Source: Holophagaceae bacterium
Lineage (GTDB): Bacteria > Acidobacteriota > Holophagae > Holophagales > Holophagaceae
Direction of reading: 5' to 3'
NCBI GenBank assembly: GCA_017859995.1
Contig: JAFJUR010000036.1
Location: 1 to 37,119 of the forward strand
Length of the DNA: 37,119 nucleotides
The notes below the pieces were generated by a model. The model worked only from the letters and a program-made list of their open reading frames with translations, was not told the origin of the DNA and did not search any database. This document shows, in pieces, positions 1,117 through 37,119 of this stretch. The translations under genes and the position numbers were made by a program. Within the stretch, counting starts at the first letter, position 1, and every line of letters starts with the position of its first letter.

Positions 1117-1142
1117 GGGTTAGCATAGTCCCATGCTGACCC
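1117..1142. promoter_or_regulatory. Symmetric divergent -10 region between E1-alpha and GNAT genes
   Basis: Only 17 nt separate the two divergent start codons (1115 and 1133). The centre TAGCATA (1121-1127) reads TAGCAT on the plus strand and TATGCT on the minus strand. Both fit the TANNNT form of a -10 box, and each ends exactly six nt before its ATG. Flanking bases extend this to a 9/10 inverted repeat (1117-1126 with 1133-1142). Neither gene has a Shine-Dalgarno sequence. Inference: one shared promoter centre making two leaderless transcripts. Confidence 0.45.
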
Positions 1143-1615
1143 TCCGACCCGCCGTTCCCGCCGACGCCCCGTTGATCCTGCAGTACATCCGCGAGCTCGC
1201 GGAGTACGAACGGGAGCCGGAGGCCGCCGTCGCCACCGAGGCCGACCTCCAGCGCTACGCCTTCTCCGACCATCCGCTGGTGAAGGTCACCATGGCCGAG
1301 TGGGATGGCCAGGCCGCGGGCTTCGCCCTCTGGTTCCTCAACTTCAGCACCTGGGAAGGCAAGCCCGGCATCTACCTCGAGGACCTCTTCGTGCGTCCTT
1401 CCTTCCGCGGCCACGGCATCGGCAAGGCCCTGCTGCAGCACCTGGCGGCCCTGGCCGTGAAGGAGGGCTGGACCCGCTTCGTCTGGCAGGTGCTGGACTG
1501 GAACACGCCCGCCATCGCGTTCTACGAGGCCCACGGCGCGAAGGTCATGCACCCCTGGCTCACCTGCCGGGTGGAAGGCGAGGCCCTCGCCCGGCTCGCC
1601 GGGACGCCGGATTGA
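1133..1615 (+). CDS. GNAT N-acetyltransferase, spermidine/thialysine acetyltransferase-like
   Basis: This 160-residue protein is a single GNAT domain that transfers acetyl from acetyl-CoA to an amine. Motif A is clear: LEDLFVRPSFRGHGIG, with the acetyl-CoA pyrophosphate-binding loop RGHGIG at residues 92-97. The preceding FLNFSTWEGKPGIYLEDL and the later LDWNTPAIAFYEAHGA are characteristic of the diamine (SSAT) and thialysine acetyltransferase branch, so a small polyamine or lysine analogue is the likely acceptor; this is family-level inference. There is no Shine-Dalgarno before the ATG. The stop codon overlaps the TTG start of the CCA-adding enzyme, so the two are probably translationally coupled. 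Confidence 0.88.
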   Translation: MLTLRPAVPADAPLILQYIRELAEYEREPEAAVATEADLQRYAFSDHPLVKVTMAEWDGQAAGFALWFLNFSTWEGKPGIYLEDLFVRPSFRGHGIGKALLQHLAALAVKEGWTRFVWQVLDWNTPAIAFYEAHGAKVMHPWLTCRVEGEALARLAGTPD

Positions 1616-2964
1616 CCTGGGCGCCCCTGCTCCGTCTGCGGGAGGCCCTGGGGCCCGACGCGGAGCTGGCGGTGGTGGGGGGCGCCGTCCGGGATGAACT
1701 GCTGGGCCGGCCCCATGCCGACTGGGACCTGGCCACGCGGCTGCTGCCCCAGGCCGTGATGGACCGGGCGCGGACCGCGGGTCTGAAGGTCATCCCCACG
1801 GGACTCCAGCACGGCACGGTGACCGTGATCCTGGAGGACCGCCCCGTCGAGATCACCACCTTCCGCAGCGATGGCGACTACTTGGACGGCCGGCGCCCCG
1901 AGTCGGTGCGGCTCGGCGTGGACCTCCTGGAGGACCTGTCGCGCCGGGACTTCACCATCAACGCCATGGCGCTCCCGGTGGGCGGCGGAGCCCTGGTGGA
2001 TCCCTTCGGCGGCCAGGTGGATCTGGCGGCGAAGGTCATCCGGGCCGTGGGGGATCCCATGCTTCGCTTCGGCGAGGACGGCCTGCGGCCCCTCCGCGCC
2101 TGCCGGTTTGCTGCCCAGCTGGGTTTCGAGGTGGAGGCCGCCACCCTGGCGGCGATCCCCAGGCGGCTGGACGTTTCCCGGAAAGTCTCCGTGGAGCGGG
2201 TCTTCACGGAGATGGACAAGCTGCTGCGGGGCCTGGAACCGGCCCGCGGCCTGGACCTGCTGGCCCGCACAGGGCTGCTGGACCTGTGGCTGCCGGAACT
2301 GCGGTCCCTGATCGGCTGCGAGCAGAACCGCTATCACCGGCACGATGTGTGGATCCACACCCTGGAGGTGGCCGGGTTCGCGCCCCCGGAACCCGCCCTG
2401 CGCTGGGCCGCCCTCCTCCACGATGCCGGCAAGCCCGCGACCCGCATCACCGGGCCAGAAGGTGACGTGCATTTCTACGGCCACGAGGAGGCCTCCCTGG
2501 AGGTGGCCGAGGCGATCCTCGGGCGCCTGAAGGCCAGCCACGCGCTGCGCCAGGATGTCGCCGCCCTGATCCGCCACCACGGCATCCATCCTACGAAAGC
2601 CTGGGGCGACGCCGCCTGCCGCCGCTTCCTGCGCCGACTTGCCGACGACGGCCTGTCCCTGGCCCGGTGGGGCGCGTTCCGCCTGGCGGATCTCCAGGGC
2701 AAGGGTGTGGATGTGGACCAGAACCTGGCCGAGCATGGCGGCTGGATGGCTCGGCTCCAGGCCCTGGCCGCCACGACGCCGCCTCTGTCGGTGCGGGCGC
2801 TGGCCCTGGATGGCGCGGCCCTCATGGTCCTGGCGGGGCGGGGCGGGGGCCCCTGGCTTGGGGACCTGCAACGGCGCCTCCTGGAGGCGGTGATCGAGGA
2901 CCCCGGGACCAACACGCCGGAACGGCTTGCCGAGTTGGCTCGGAAGGAACTGGGACAGGCATGA
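1612..2964 (+). CDS. cca: CCA-adding tRNA nucleotidyltransferase / poly(A) polymerase family with HD domain
   Basis: About 450 residues. It adds or repairs the 3' CCA of tRNA from CTP and ATP in the cytoplasm. The nucleotidyltransferase head has GGAVRD (23-28) and the catalytic pair D37/D39 in HADWDLAT, followed by RRDFTINAMA (111-120) and the RFGEDGLRPLRACRFAAQLG segment. A C-terminal HD domain follows (H249, then LLHDAGKP with H270-D271), as in CCA enzymes with phosphohydrolase activity. The start is a TTG at 1612 whose last two bases begin the upstream TGA stop (TTGA overlap); residues upstream of it in this frame belong to the GNAT gene. A poly(A) polymerase cannot be excluded from motifs alone. 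The stop codon lies inside the terminator stem. Confidence 0.88.
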   Translation: MTWAPLLRLREALGPDAELAVVGGAVRDELLGRPHADWDLATRLLPQAVMDRARTAGLKVIPTGLQHGTVTVILEDRPVEITTFRSDGDYLDGRRPESVRLGVDLLEDLSRRDFTINAMALPVGGGALVDPFGGQVDLAAKVIRAVGDPMLRFGEDGLRPLRACRFAAQLGFEVEAATLAAIPRRLDVSRKVSVERVFTEMDKLLRGLEPARGLDLLARTGLLDLWLPELRSLIGCEQNRYHRHDVWIHTLEVAGFAPPEPALRWAALLHDAGKPATRITGPEGDVHFYGHEEASLEVAEAILGRLKASHALRQDVAALIRHHGIHPTKAWGDAACRRFLRRLADDGLSLARWGAFRLADLQGKGVDVDQNLAEHGGWMARLQALAATTPPLSVRALALDGAALMVLAGRGGGPWLGDLQRRLLEAVIEDPGTNTPERLAELARKELGQA

Positions 2965-2994
2965 AAACGCCCGGCGGGTGCCGGGCGTTTTCAT
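2961..2994. terminator. Bidirectional rho-independent terminator between cca and sdhB
   Basis: A perfect 15-bp stem (2961-2975 with 2980-2994) closes a 4-nt GGGT loop, with AAAA on the left arm and TTTT on the right, so it can end transcripts from both convergent genes. The TGA stop of the CCA gene (2962-2964) is part of the left arm. Confidence 0.9.
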
Positions 2995-3007
2995 GGAGCA
3001 GGGCAGA

Positions 3008-3796
3008 TCAGCCCGCGCCGCCGCCGCCGGCGACGGCGGGACGGTAGGTGAGGCTGGCCTTGATGAAGTCGCGGTTCATGCGCGCGATGTTCTCCATCTT
3101 GATGCCCTTGGGGCAGGCGATTTCACACTCGCCGTGGTTGGTGCAGGTGCCGAACTCCTCTGCGTCCATCTGGGCGACCATGTCGCGAACGCGGGTGTAG
3201 CGCTCGGGCTGGCCCTGGGGCAGCAGCGACAGCTGGCTGACCTTCGCCGACAGGAAGAGCATGGCGCTGGCGTTGGGGCAGGCGGCCACGCAGGCGCCGC
3301 ACCCGATGCAGGCGGCGGCATCCATGGCGAGTTCGGCATTCTCCTTGGGAATGGGCAGGGCGTTGGCATCCTGGGCCGAACCCGTGGGCACGCTGACAAA
3401 CCCTCCCGCGGCGATGATGCGATCCAGCGCGCCGCGATCCACCATCAGGTCCTTGAGCACCGGGAAGGCCTCGGCCCGCCAGGGCTCGAGGGTGATGCTC
3501 TCTCCATCCTTGAAGCTGCGCATGTGCAGCTGGCAGGTGGTGGTGCGCTCCTTCGGGCCATGGGGACGGCCGTTGATCACCATGCTGCAGGTGCCGCAGA
3601 TGCCTTCGCGGCAGTCATGGTCGAAGGTGATCGGGTCCTCGCCCTTGCGGATGAGGCCTTCGTTGACGATGTCCAGCATTTCCAGGAAGGACATGTCGGG
3701 GCTGATGTTTTCGGCGGGGTACTCGACGAACTTGCCGTCGCAGGTCGCATTCTTCTGCCGCCACACGTGGAGGGTGAGATTGAGGTGCTTGGACAT
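3008..3796 (-). CDS. sdhB: Succinate dehydrogenase/fumarate reductase iron-sulfur subunit
   Basis: This 262-residue subunit carries electrons from the flavin in SdhA to the quinone site in the membrane. The [2Fe-2S] ligands are C62, C67 and C70 (CREGICGTC) and C88. The ferredoxin-like half has [12 protein letters not shown] (163-174) and [12 protein letters not shown] (218-229), enough for the [4Fe-4S] and [3Fe-4S] clusters. It is the last gene of sdhCAB, 11 nt after sdhA. The long GS/A-rich insert between the cluster groups and a C-terminal glycine tail are within family variation. Whether it runs as succinate dehydrogenase or fumarate reductase cannot be told from sequence; the subunit set resembles the menaquinone-linked type B enzymes. 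Confidence 0.95.
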
Positions 3797-32654: not shown

Positions 32655-33794
32655 TTATTTCAGCAGTTCCCGGGCGATGACCATGCGCTGGATCTCGCTG
32701 GTGCCCTCGTAGATGGTGGTCACACGCACGTCGCGGTAGAGCCGTTCCACCAGGTATTCCCGGGAATAGCCGTAGCCGCCGTGGATCTGCACGGCGCGGT
32801 CGCAGAGCCAGACGGCGCTCTCGGTGGTGAAGAGCTTGGCGGTGGCGGCCTCCACGGTGCAGATCTTCCCGGCCTCTTTCAGGGCCGCGGCCCGGTAGAC
32901 GAGCAGTCGGGAGGCCTGGAGCCGGGCCTCCATCTCGGCCAGGTAGGTCTGGATCATCTGATGCTCGCCGATGGGCTTACCAAAGGAAATCCGGGCCTTG
33001 GCGTAGGCCACGCTCTCGTCCATGGCCCGCTGGGCGATGCCGAGGGCCTGGGCGGCGATGCCGATGCGGCCGCCATCCAGCCCGCCGAAGGCCACCTTCA
33101 GGCCGTCCCCGGGCTTGCCCAGCATGGCGTCCTCGGGGACGAAGGCATCTTCGAGCGCCACCATGACGGTCTTGCTGGAGCGCAGGCCCATCTTCTCCTC
33201 GGGGCGGCCCATGACCACGCCGGGCTGGTCCGCGTCGAGGATGAAGGCGCTGATGCCCTTCTTGCCCTTGTCGGGATCGGTGCGCGCCATGGTGACGAAG
33301 TAGCGTCCCACGCCGCCGTTGGTGATCCAGGCCTTCGCGCCGTTCAGCTTCCAGCCGCCGTCCACCTTGGTGGCCCGGGTCTTCAGCGCCGCGGCGTCGG
33401 AGCCCGCGTCGGGCTCGGTGAGCATGAACCCGCCCAGCAGCTCGCCGCTGGCCAGGGGCTTCAGGTACTTCTGCTTCTGGGCTTCCGTTCCGAAGGCCAG
33501 GATGGGCGCGCAGGCCACGGAGTTGTTCACGCTCATGGTCACGGCCACGGAGGCGTCCGCGTAAGCGACCTGCTCGAGGGCCAGGATGTAGCTGAGGAAA
33601 TCCACGCCGGCGCCGCCGTAGGCCTCGGGCACGGTCATGCCCAGGAAGCCCATCTCGCCCAGCTGCTTCAGGATCGCCTTGGGGAATTCGCCGCTGGCAT
33701 CCCGCGCGGCGGCCCCCGGATCGATCTCGGCCATGGCGAAATCGCGGGCGGCCTCGCGGATCGCGGACTGGTCCTCAGTGAACTGGGGGAACAT
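32655..33794 (-). CDS. Acyl-CoA dehydrogenase (short/branched-chain type)
   Basis: 379 residues; a FAD enzyme that makes the 2,3-double bond in acyl-CoA and passes electrons to ETF. The signatures FMLTEPDAGSDAAALKT and QIHGGYGYSREYLVERLYRD are present, and the catalytic base is the Glu of TTIYEGTSEIQ near the C-terminus, the position used by short-chain and butyryl-CoA dehydrogenases. The ATG at 33794 is chosen because GGAG lies 5 nt upstream; the in-frame GTG at 33800 overlaps that site. ETF genes are not nearby. It lies between the LipB-Nudix gene (102 nt upstream) and the TolC-like gene. Confidence 0.93.
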   Translation of the reverse strand: MFPQFTEDQSAIREAARDFAMAEIDPGAAARDASGEFPKAILKQLGEMGFLGMTVPEAYGGAGVDFLSYILALEQVAYADASVAVTMSVNNSVACAPILAFGTEAQKQKYLKPLASGELLGGFMLTEPDAGSDAAALKTRATKVDGGWKLNGAKAWITNGGVGRYFVTMARTDPDKGKKGISAFILDADQPGVVMGRPEEKMGLRSSKTVMVALEDAFVPEDAMLGKPGDGLKVAFGGLDGGRIGIAAQALGIAQRAMDESVAYAKARISFGKPIGEHQMIQTYLAEMEARLQASRLLVYRAAALKEAGKICTVEAATAKLFTTESAVWLCDRAVQIHGGYGYSREYLVERLYRDVRVTTIYEGTSEIQRMVIARELLK

Positions 33795-33896
33795 GGACAC
33801 TCCGGAGAATGGCTCAGATTACCAAGGGGTGCGGAGCTTCGGGCAGCGGACACCCCGGGCCATGACGCGAATCACAGACCGCTGGGCCGGGAATGC

Positions 33897-35024
33897 TCAG
33901 GCTGAGAGCGCCTGCCGCAGCAGCTGGAGCGCCGCCTTCGAGCCCTCCCACTTCATGCGTGCGTAGGCCTCGTCCAGTCCGCACCAGAGGTATTCGCTGT
34001 GCTCGGAGGGCTCCAGGCGCACCTCCGCCCCGGGCGCGACCTCCATGGAGAAGCAGGTCTCCGTGTTGAACCGGGGTTCGGCATCGGGGAAATGGACGAT
34101 GGAAGGATCCACCCAGAAGCTGTGGGAAAGCCCCAGGGGCCGCAGCGTGCCGGTGAGGCCCGTCTCCTCCAGGAGCTCGCGGTGGGCGGTCTCCTCGGGC
34201 GTCTCGCCCGGCTCCATCATCCCCGTGACGCTCTGCCACCAGAGCCCGTGGGCCGGCACGCGGAGCATCATCAGCACCTCGGGGCCCTGGGCGCCCCGGC
34301 GCCAGGTCAGGGCGGACACGCTTCGGCTGGGCTCGCGGACGGGCTGGAAGGCCATGGCCAGGCAGGCGGTGAGGTGGGCCTGCAGGTGGTCCGCCGCCAC
34401 GTCCCAGCTGGGAGCCTGCTCGCCGAGCAGAGACCCCAGGCTGCAGACGCCCTTGTCCGTGAAGCCGCAGGGCGTGATCCAGCGGAAGTGGTCGAGGTTC
34501 GGGCGCACGTTGAAGGCGATGCCGTGGGTGGTGATCCAGCGGCTGAGGTGCAGGCCGATGGCGCCCAGCTTCTCGAGGCCCCGGGGGGTCTCCACCCAGA
34601 TGCCCGGCGCGCCCTTCAGGCGATCCGCCGTCACGCCGAACTCAGCGGCCGTGCGGATCATGGCCTCCTCCAGTCCGCGCACCAGCCGGCCCACGTCCTC
34701 GCGGCCCCCCCGGAGGTTGCAGATGGGATAGGCGACGATCTGGCCGGGGCCGTGGTAGGTCACCTCGCCGCCGCGGTCCGTGCGGTGGACGCTCACGCCC
34801 TGGGCGGCGAGGAAGTCCTCGCTCATGTGGATATCTGCCGGCGTGGCGTTGCGCCCCAGGGTGAAGACCGGATCGTGCTCCAGGATCACCAGCTGGTCCG
34901 GCCGGTCCTCCCCGTTCACGTACTCGGCTAGGGCCTTCTGCATGCGGAGGCCGGCTGGGTAGAACACGCGCTTGAAGCGGCGCAGCTGGGCGGGGCGGGG
35001 GGTGGCGAAGCCGATCTCGGACAT
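33897..35024 (-). CDS. lipB: Fusion of lipoyl(octanoyl) transferase LipB with a C-terminal Nudix hydrolase domain
   Basis: 375 residues in one frame. Residues 1 to about 230 are LipB, which moves octanoyl from acyl carrier protein to lipoyl domains: RGGEVTYHGPGQIVAYPI (84-101), the conserved lysine K152 in KLGAIGLHLSR and the catalytic Cys186 in ITPCGFTDKGVCSLGS. Residues about 233-375 are a full Nudix domain with box GMMEPGETPEETAHRELLEE then TGL (268-290), all G-x5-E-x7-REUxEExGU positions present. Its tail (EHSEYLWCGLDEAYARMKW) resembles NudB (dihydroneopterin triphosphate pyrophosphatase). LipB is normally a stand-alone protein of 200-250 residues. The Nudix substrate is unknown. Divergent from the kinase gene (58 nt). 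No lipA nearby. Confidence 0.93.
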   Translation of the reverse strand: MSEIGFATPRPAQLRRFKRVFYPAGLRMQKALAEYVNGEDRPDQLVILEHDPVFTLGRNATPADIHMSEDFLAAQGVSVHRTDRGGEVTYHGPGQIVAYPICNLRGGREDVGRLVRGLEEAMIRTAAEFGVTADRLKGAPGIWVETPRGLEKLGAIGLHLSRWITTHGIAFNVRPNLDHFRWITPCGFTDKGVCSLGSLLGEQAPSWDVAADHLQAHLTACLAMAFQPVREPSRSVSALTWRRGAQGPEVLMMLRVPAHGLWWQSVTGMMEPGETPEETAHRELLEETGLTGTLRPLGLSHSFWVDPSIVHFPDAEPRFNTETCFSMEVAPGAEVRLEPSEHSEYLWCGLDEAYARMKWEGSKAALQLLRQALSA

Positions 35025-36560: not shown

Positions 36561-37052
36561 CTAGGGCAGCCGGTCGTTGAGCAGCACCTTCTGGGCCTGG
36601 GCCTCGCGGTAGGCCTTCAGGCGCATGAGCAGCGCCTGGTCCGTGCCGGCGAGGATGGCGGCGGCAAAGAGCGCGGCGTTCACGGCCCCGGCCTTGCCGA
36701 TGGCCAGGGTGCCCACGGGGATGCCCGCGGGCATCTGGACGATGGAAAGTAGGGAATCCATGCCGTTCAGGGCCTTGCTTTGCACCGGCACGCCGAGCAC
36801 AGGGATCAGGGTCTTGGCCGCGGCCATCCCGGGCAGGTGGGCGGCGCCGCCGGCGCCGGCGATGATGACGCGCAGGCCCCGGCTCTCTGCCTTCTCGCAG
36901 TATTTGAACAGCTTGTCCGGCGTGCGGTGCGCGCTCACCACCTCCGCCTCGAAGGGAATGCCGAGCTCCTTCAGCGTTTCGGCCGTGTGCTCCATGGTCT
37001 CCCAATCCGAGCGGGAACCCATGATGAGGCCGACGAGCGGGGCGGTGGACAT
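36561..37052 (-). CDS. purE: N5-carboxyaminoimidazole ribonucleotide mutase
   Basis: 163 residues. Class I PurE rearranges N5-CAIR to CAIR in purine synthesis. Motifs are GSRSDWETM (12-20), SAHRTP (40-45, with the active-site His) and [12 protein letters not shown] (65-76), followed by [20 protein letters not shown]. The start is the ATG at 37052, 6 nt after GGAGGA; the TTG at 37070 and the ATG at 37058 overlap or abut that site and are rejected. The usual partner purK is not seen; it would have to lie beyond the right edge or elsewhere. The remaining 67 nt to the edge hold no clear promoter. Confidence 0.95.
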
Positions 37053-37119
37053 GGACATTCCTCCAGGCAAAGTCGGTCGAGCGGAAGGTCGGATCAGAGG
37101 CCTGAGCCAGCGAAGTCGG

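Follow-up and report, generated by a model that had tools for sequence, protein, structure and literature searches.

LipB, the octanoyl-ACP:protein octanoyltransferase (TIGR00214), is known from the Thermus (2qhs) and M. tuberculosis (1w66) proteins and has a catalytic Lys/Cys pair and the motif RGGxVTYHGPGQ. To our knowledge, its chemistry yields no adenylate. The accessory-domain ligases of the LplA-LplB type consist of a LipB-fold domain and an extra C-terminal domain. The glycine cleavage system requires both lipoyl-GcvH and tetrahydrofolate. In the folate pathway, the FolQ step lies between FolE and FolB. FolQ and NudB (L. lactis FolQ; E. coli NudB, 2o1c and 5u7e) have a Nudix box accompanied by W-Q-x-V-T-G and E-H motifs. 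In 2007 the gene for the dihydroneopterin triphosphate (DHNTP) pyrophosphatase, folQ, was reported to be still missing in most bacterial genomes, the reason being that Nudix specificity is not readable from homology alone (PMC1971073).

A gene of a Holophagaceae bacterium joins these two families. It lies in the window, the whole 37,119-nucleotide stretch of DNA that was analysed. The N-terminal half has the catalytic residues, the fold and the motif of LipB, but a Nudix domain is added at the C-terminus. The layout thus resembles that of the LplA-LplB ligases, except that the extra domain is Nudix and not LplB. The added domain shares the box, both motifs and the fold with NudB/FolQ, from which it differs in its fusion to LipB, in sequence (26% identity), in the loop before the N-x-E motif and in a NudB model score below the cut-off. 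No paper describing a LipB-Nudix fusion was found in the literature searched. Both families are known, and what is new is their combination in one protein.

The fusion gene and its two domains

LipB with its Lys/Cys pair and an intact Nudix box are encoded in one uninterrupted frame, as the initial annotation had proposed (Table 1). The junction, which it had placed near residue 232 (about nucleotide 34328), falls within the boundary seen in the model. The strand, which it had left unstated, is minus. Both domains score far above the Pfam cut-offs (LplA-B_cat, 137.3 bits; NUDIX, 65.7 bits), and the TIGR00214 lipB model matches with 145.8 bits against a cut-off of 83.6. The closest solved fold for the LipB half is Thermus LipB 2qhs, with a TM score of 0.93. 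The fusion is the sole LplA-B_cat protein found in the window's genome, which is 88.7% complete, and is one of six Nudix genes there.

Table 1. Coordinates of the fusion gene, its parts and neighbours (positions in the window), and of the Nudix-FolP genes (positions in their own loci)
Feature	Position	Strand	Basis or remark
LipB-Nudix fusion gene, 375 aa + stop	33897..35024	-	single ORF, no internal stop
Catalytic domain of LipB, residues 25-212	34389..34952	-	PF21948, TIGR00214, 2qhs fold
LipB catalytic Lys152 codon	34569..34571	-	invariant alignment column
LipB catalytic Cys186 codon	34467..34469	-	invariant alignment column
Junction, about residues 213-234	34323..34388	-	AlphaFold model
NudB-type Nudix domain, residues 235-362	33939..34322	-	PF00293; NudB best in NCBIfam, PDB profile, fold
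Nudix box GMMEPGETPEETAHRELLEETGL, residues 268-290	34155..34223	-	catalytic residues invariant, 54/54 fusions
Acyl-CoA dehydrogenase, neighbour outside fusion	32655..33800	-	same strand, 96 bp downstream of fusion
PurE-like protein, neighbour outside fusion	36561..37070	-	translation
Nudix-FolP, L162 (G063)	1863-3251	+	
Nudix-FolP, L163 (G051)	1131-2492	-	
Nudix-FolP, L164 (G219)	1899-3320	+	

The Nudix box is complete (G268-x5-E274-x7-R282-E283-x2-E286-E287-x-G289), and the C-terminal half has both the superfamily pattern GX5EX7REUXEEXGU and the Nudix fold. The AlphaFold model of this domain has a pLDDT of 94.7 and matches Nudix folds with Z scores of 15-20. The model of the full fusion (pLDDT 95.2, pTM 0.91) forms a single compact unit, in which the helix that ends LipB runs straight into the Nudix strands with no disordered linker. 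The two domains are predicted to behave as one rigid unit.

Distribution and constraint

A first survey of 396 Acidobacteriota genomes found fusions across the window's own family and six other families, and whole-family and whole-class scans added one more family. Counted by listed rows, about 109 genomes in eight families encode the fusion at full length, in a single frame free of stops. In Holophagaceae it was found in 70 of 77 genomes, and each of the 48 with a completeness of 90% or more has a match. Whole-class scans found it in 18 genomes of a second class (that of G254) and 21 of a third (that of G331), again with no internal stops. Because so many genomes keep the stop-free frame, the fusion is not a sequencing error; a lost stop, the local artefact that the initial annotation had considered, is ruled out by the same intact copies, and the partial copies that were checked are contig breaks. 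Those in G642 and G406 run off contig ends, that of G361 is divided over two contigs, and that of G300 begins at base 3 of its contig. The fusion is also present on JANXXC010000122.1 (Holophagaceae bacterium), and at least two fusions, both from Holophagaceae, are among the matches listed in a wider contig scan.

Other families of the second and third classes, such as f22, f70 and f12, have LipB without Nudix. A pre-fusion state with a Nudix gene beside a separate lipB was not found: no gene matching the Nudix profile occurred in the flanking DNA covered for 16 unfused LipB loci of Acidobacteriota, nor in that of 78 further unfused loci among the matches listed, where up to 6 kb on either side was covered. 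A single origin of the fusion is not rejected by the LipB tree (p-AU 0.22) and is compatible with the Nudix tree, but support is weak; the patchy distribution may reflect either loss or transfer. One genome, G377, has both a free-standing LipB (L191, C20:63519-64166) and a LipB-Nudix fusion (L058, C22:98886-99968), the fused copy adjoining an E2 gene.

Both halves are constrained. The catalytic Nudix residues are invariant in 54 of 54 aligned fusions, and Lys152 and Cys186 are invariant in 30. Across 19 congeneric species, dN/dS has a median of 0.12 in LipB and 0.13 in Nudix; the Nudix half is thus under purifying selection, with dN/dS equally low in both halves. Decay of the Nudix residues in homologues, which would have undone the initial annotation's idea of an active second domain, was not seen, and a degenerate Nudix half is ruled out. 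Three fusions, L046, L048 and L051 (genomes G267, G346 and G051), have a GX7E in place of the GX5E box, the Gly being separated from the first Glu by two additional residues, and this subclade may have changed in activity.

Placement of the Nudix half in the NudB group

NudB (dihydroneopterin triphosphate diphosphatase, NF006961) is the first NCBIfam match of the Nudix half, with 67.8 bits for the whole protein and 70.6 for the domain, below the curated cut-off of 103. The same model matches 25 of 25 sampled fused Nudix domains and is their most frequent NCBIfam match. A PDB search with a profile of the 25 domains placed E. coli NudB 2o1c on top (E 5.8e-22), followed by an uncharacterised Listeria protein (1.1e-17) and human Ap4A hydrolase (1.2e-13). 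The top fold match is NudB 5u7e (Z 19.8 over 134 residues, rmsd 1.9 Å), with 2o1c at Z 19.7, in a narrow ranking where 3son is tied within 1 Z and MutT1 and one Ap4A hydrolase stand at about 18.5. By both sequence profile and fold, the closest solved structure is NudB.

The motifs point the same way. Fused domains retain the NudB-type W-Q-S/P-V-T-G and E-H motifs, where the Ap4A hydrolase sequence has P-K-G. The P-K-G that precedes the box in asymmetrical Ap4A hydrolases such as NUDT2 is V-T-G here, and Thr267 and Gly268 are invariant in all fusions aligned. CoA-Nudix enzymes carry the signature LLTxR...FPGG ahead of the Nudix box; a motif search of the fusion's Nudix half found neither this pattern nor FPGG. 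Sequence and fold alike place the Nudix half in the NudB group, and the "NudB-like tail" of the initial annotation was correctly recognised.

Function of the fusion protein

The best explanation, to which we assign a probability of about 0.55, is that the fusion is a bifunctional enzyme of cofactor synthesis, an octanoyltransferase joined to FolQ. We infer both activities, DHNTP as the substrate and any coupling between the halves. Judging from the family and the conserved residues, Cys186 and Lys152 would take the octanoyl group from octanoyl-ACP and load it onto the lysine of the lipoyl domain in E2 and GcvH proteins. The Nudix half would be a metal-dependent pyrophosphatase of the NudB group, most likely converting 7,8-dihydroneopterin triphosphate to the monophosphate and pyrophosphate.

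In a Nudix profile search across the phylum, the matches to the same Nudix group were almost exclusively LipB fusions, with a few other proteins. Among these others are in-frame fusions to FolP (dihydropteroate synthase) in G051, G063 and G219, with TIGR01496 scores of 289-307 bits, above the cut-off. Their Nudix domain shares its group with that of the LipB fusions, but the partner is FolP and the order is reversed, with Nudix at the N-terminus. A free-standing member of the group, L166, passes the NudB cut-off of 103 bits with a score of 140. In the Nudix tree one branch can part the LipB-fused domains from the FolP-fused and free-standing ones, with weak basal support. FolE, FolK and FolP are all present in the window's genome, in which neither a second match to the Nudix profile nor a separate NudB-like gene was found. 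The folate link guessed at in the initial annotation is supported by the FolP fusions and the NudB matches; they favour a biosynthetic FolQ step over its suggestion that a competing precursor is cleared. Counting against the folate reading are the NudB score below cut-off, the two-residue box insertion in one subclade, and redundancy in G051 and G063, each of which has a FolP-fused and a LipB-fused copy, so that FolQ would be redundant there.

The shared need of glycine cleavage for both cofactors may be the reason the fusion was kept; just as well, the halves may work independently in a gene fusion that has become frozen. FolK and GcvH do not discriminate, since nearly all Acidobacteriota tested have them whether or not they carry the fusion. 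GcvH occurs in 60 of 60 genomes irrespective of the fusion, and co-occurrence with glycine cleavage is uninformative as proof. A dual-cofactor control point, where rigid contact would let pterin or folate status affect octanoyl transfer, or the reverse, and so keep lipoyl-GcvH in step with the tetrahydrofolate available to glycine cleavage and one-carbon metabolism, is a very doubtful extension.

The gene neighbourhood also counts against the folate reading and brings in a different role. Outside Holophagaceae the fusion is often beside 2-oxoacid dehydrogenase genes, not folate genes. It is often near the E2 gene in families f25, f40, f60, f77 and f83, and directly after E2 in L048 and L059, where Pfam confirmed the lipoyl domain. 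E1-alpha and E1-beta lie upstream in several of these loci, and in f25 lipA comes next. The Nudix half might then have a direct part in lipoylation or in the upkeep of the 2-oxoacid dehydrogenases, for instance by removing CoA, acyl-CoA, lipoyl- or octanoyl-AMP or damaged thiamin diphosphate, and genomes with a second, FolP-fused Nudix do keep LipB-Nudix intact. The E2/lipA neighbourhood is, however, explained by the LipB half, which it fits; by itself it says nothing of the Nudix half. In Holophagaceae it is absent, the neighbours being acyl-CoA dehydrogenase, a TolC-like protein and PurE (a PurE-like gene is near the fusion in several family members, cluster WIN/L038/L043/L044). With no nucleotide intermediate in the LipB reaction and no CoA-Nudix signature, such a role appears rather unlikely. 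A second LplA/LipM-type protein was not found in the window's genome (88.7% complete), which argues against free lipoyl-AMP as a Nudix substrate and, together with the chemistry of LipB, leaves the acyl-adenylate by-product suggested in the initial annotation unsupported.

A house-cleaning hydrolase of Ap4A, dATP or damaged dNTP, fused to LipB by chance and with no folate role, would be in line with the Nudix clan tree, where NudB and the ApnA hydrolases cluster together, and with the original characterisation of NudB as a dATP diphosphatase (PMC5389931), as well as with the sub-cut-off NudB score and the Ap4A hydrolases close behind in fold searches. We consider it unlikely in view of the first place of NudB in PDB profile and fold (MutT1 and an Ap4A hydrolase being only about 1.3 Z lower in fold), the NudB-type motifs in place of P-K-G, and the FolP fusions within the same Nudix group. 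The rigid two-domain model (pTM 0.91) would also suit a Nudix half that has no catalytic role but, as a sensor or scaffold, controls LipB through nucleotide or pterin binding, and non-catalytic Nudix domains are typically found within multidomain proteins (PMC5389931). Pure binding would not need the catalytic residues that all 54 fusions retain, and this explanation is highly improbable.

If the octanoyltransferase/FolQ reading is true, a single gene contributes steps to the synthesis of two vitamin-type cofactors, and in about a hundred genomes a second activity goes unseen where the gene is annotated only as LipB. LipB-Nudix and Nudix-FolP, two different in-frame fusions, provide a concrete folQ candidate for a whole bacterial group.

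Several further observations concern folate genes and reduced genomes. G182 and G324 (family f1, genus g5) have reduced 1.2-Mb genomes on a long branch, with only three Nudix genes each, and keep the fusion; FolE and FolK are retained in G324, in favour of the folate reading, and FolK had no match in its sister G182 (96% complete). In four f25 genomes a gene for HPPK and the fusion are 14-23 kb apart, too loose an association to count as a link. A divergent FolE (about 140-180 bits) occurs in most fusion-bearing genomes versus about 230-266 bits in most others, an imperfect correlation in that the ordinary FolE occurs in G254, G230, G267 and G346, alone or beside the divergent one. The divergent loci include G000:C48:23347-23844 (L181), L183, L184 and L185; identity as QueF is ruled out, as they match FolE models and keep the conserved Cys/His residues. 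In G063 the Nudix-FolP gene is about 22 kb from LipB-Nudix on one contig. In G009, G259 and G339, all of family f12, about 9-12 kb separate gcvH from the free-standing NudB-like gene.
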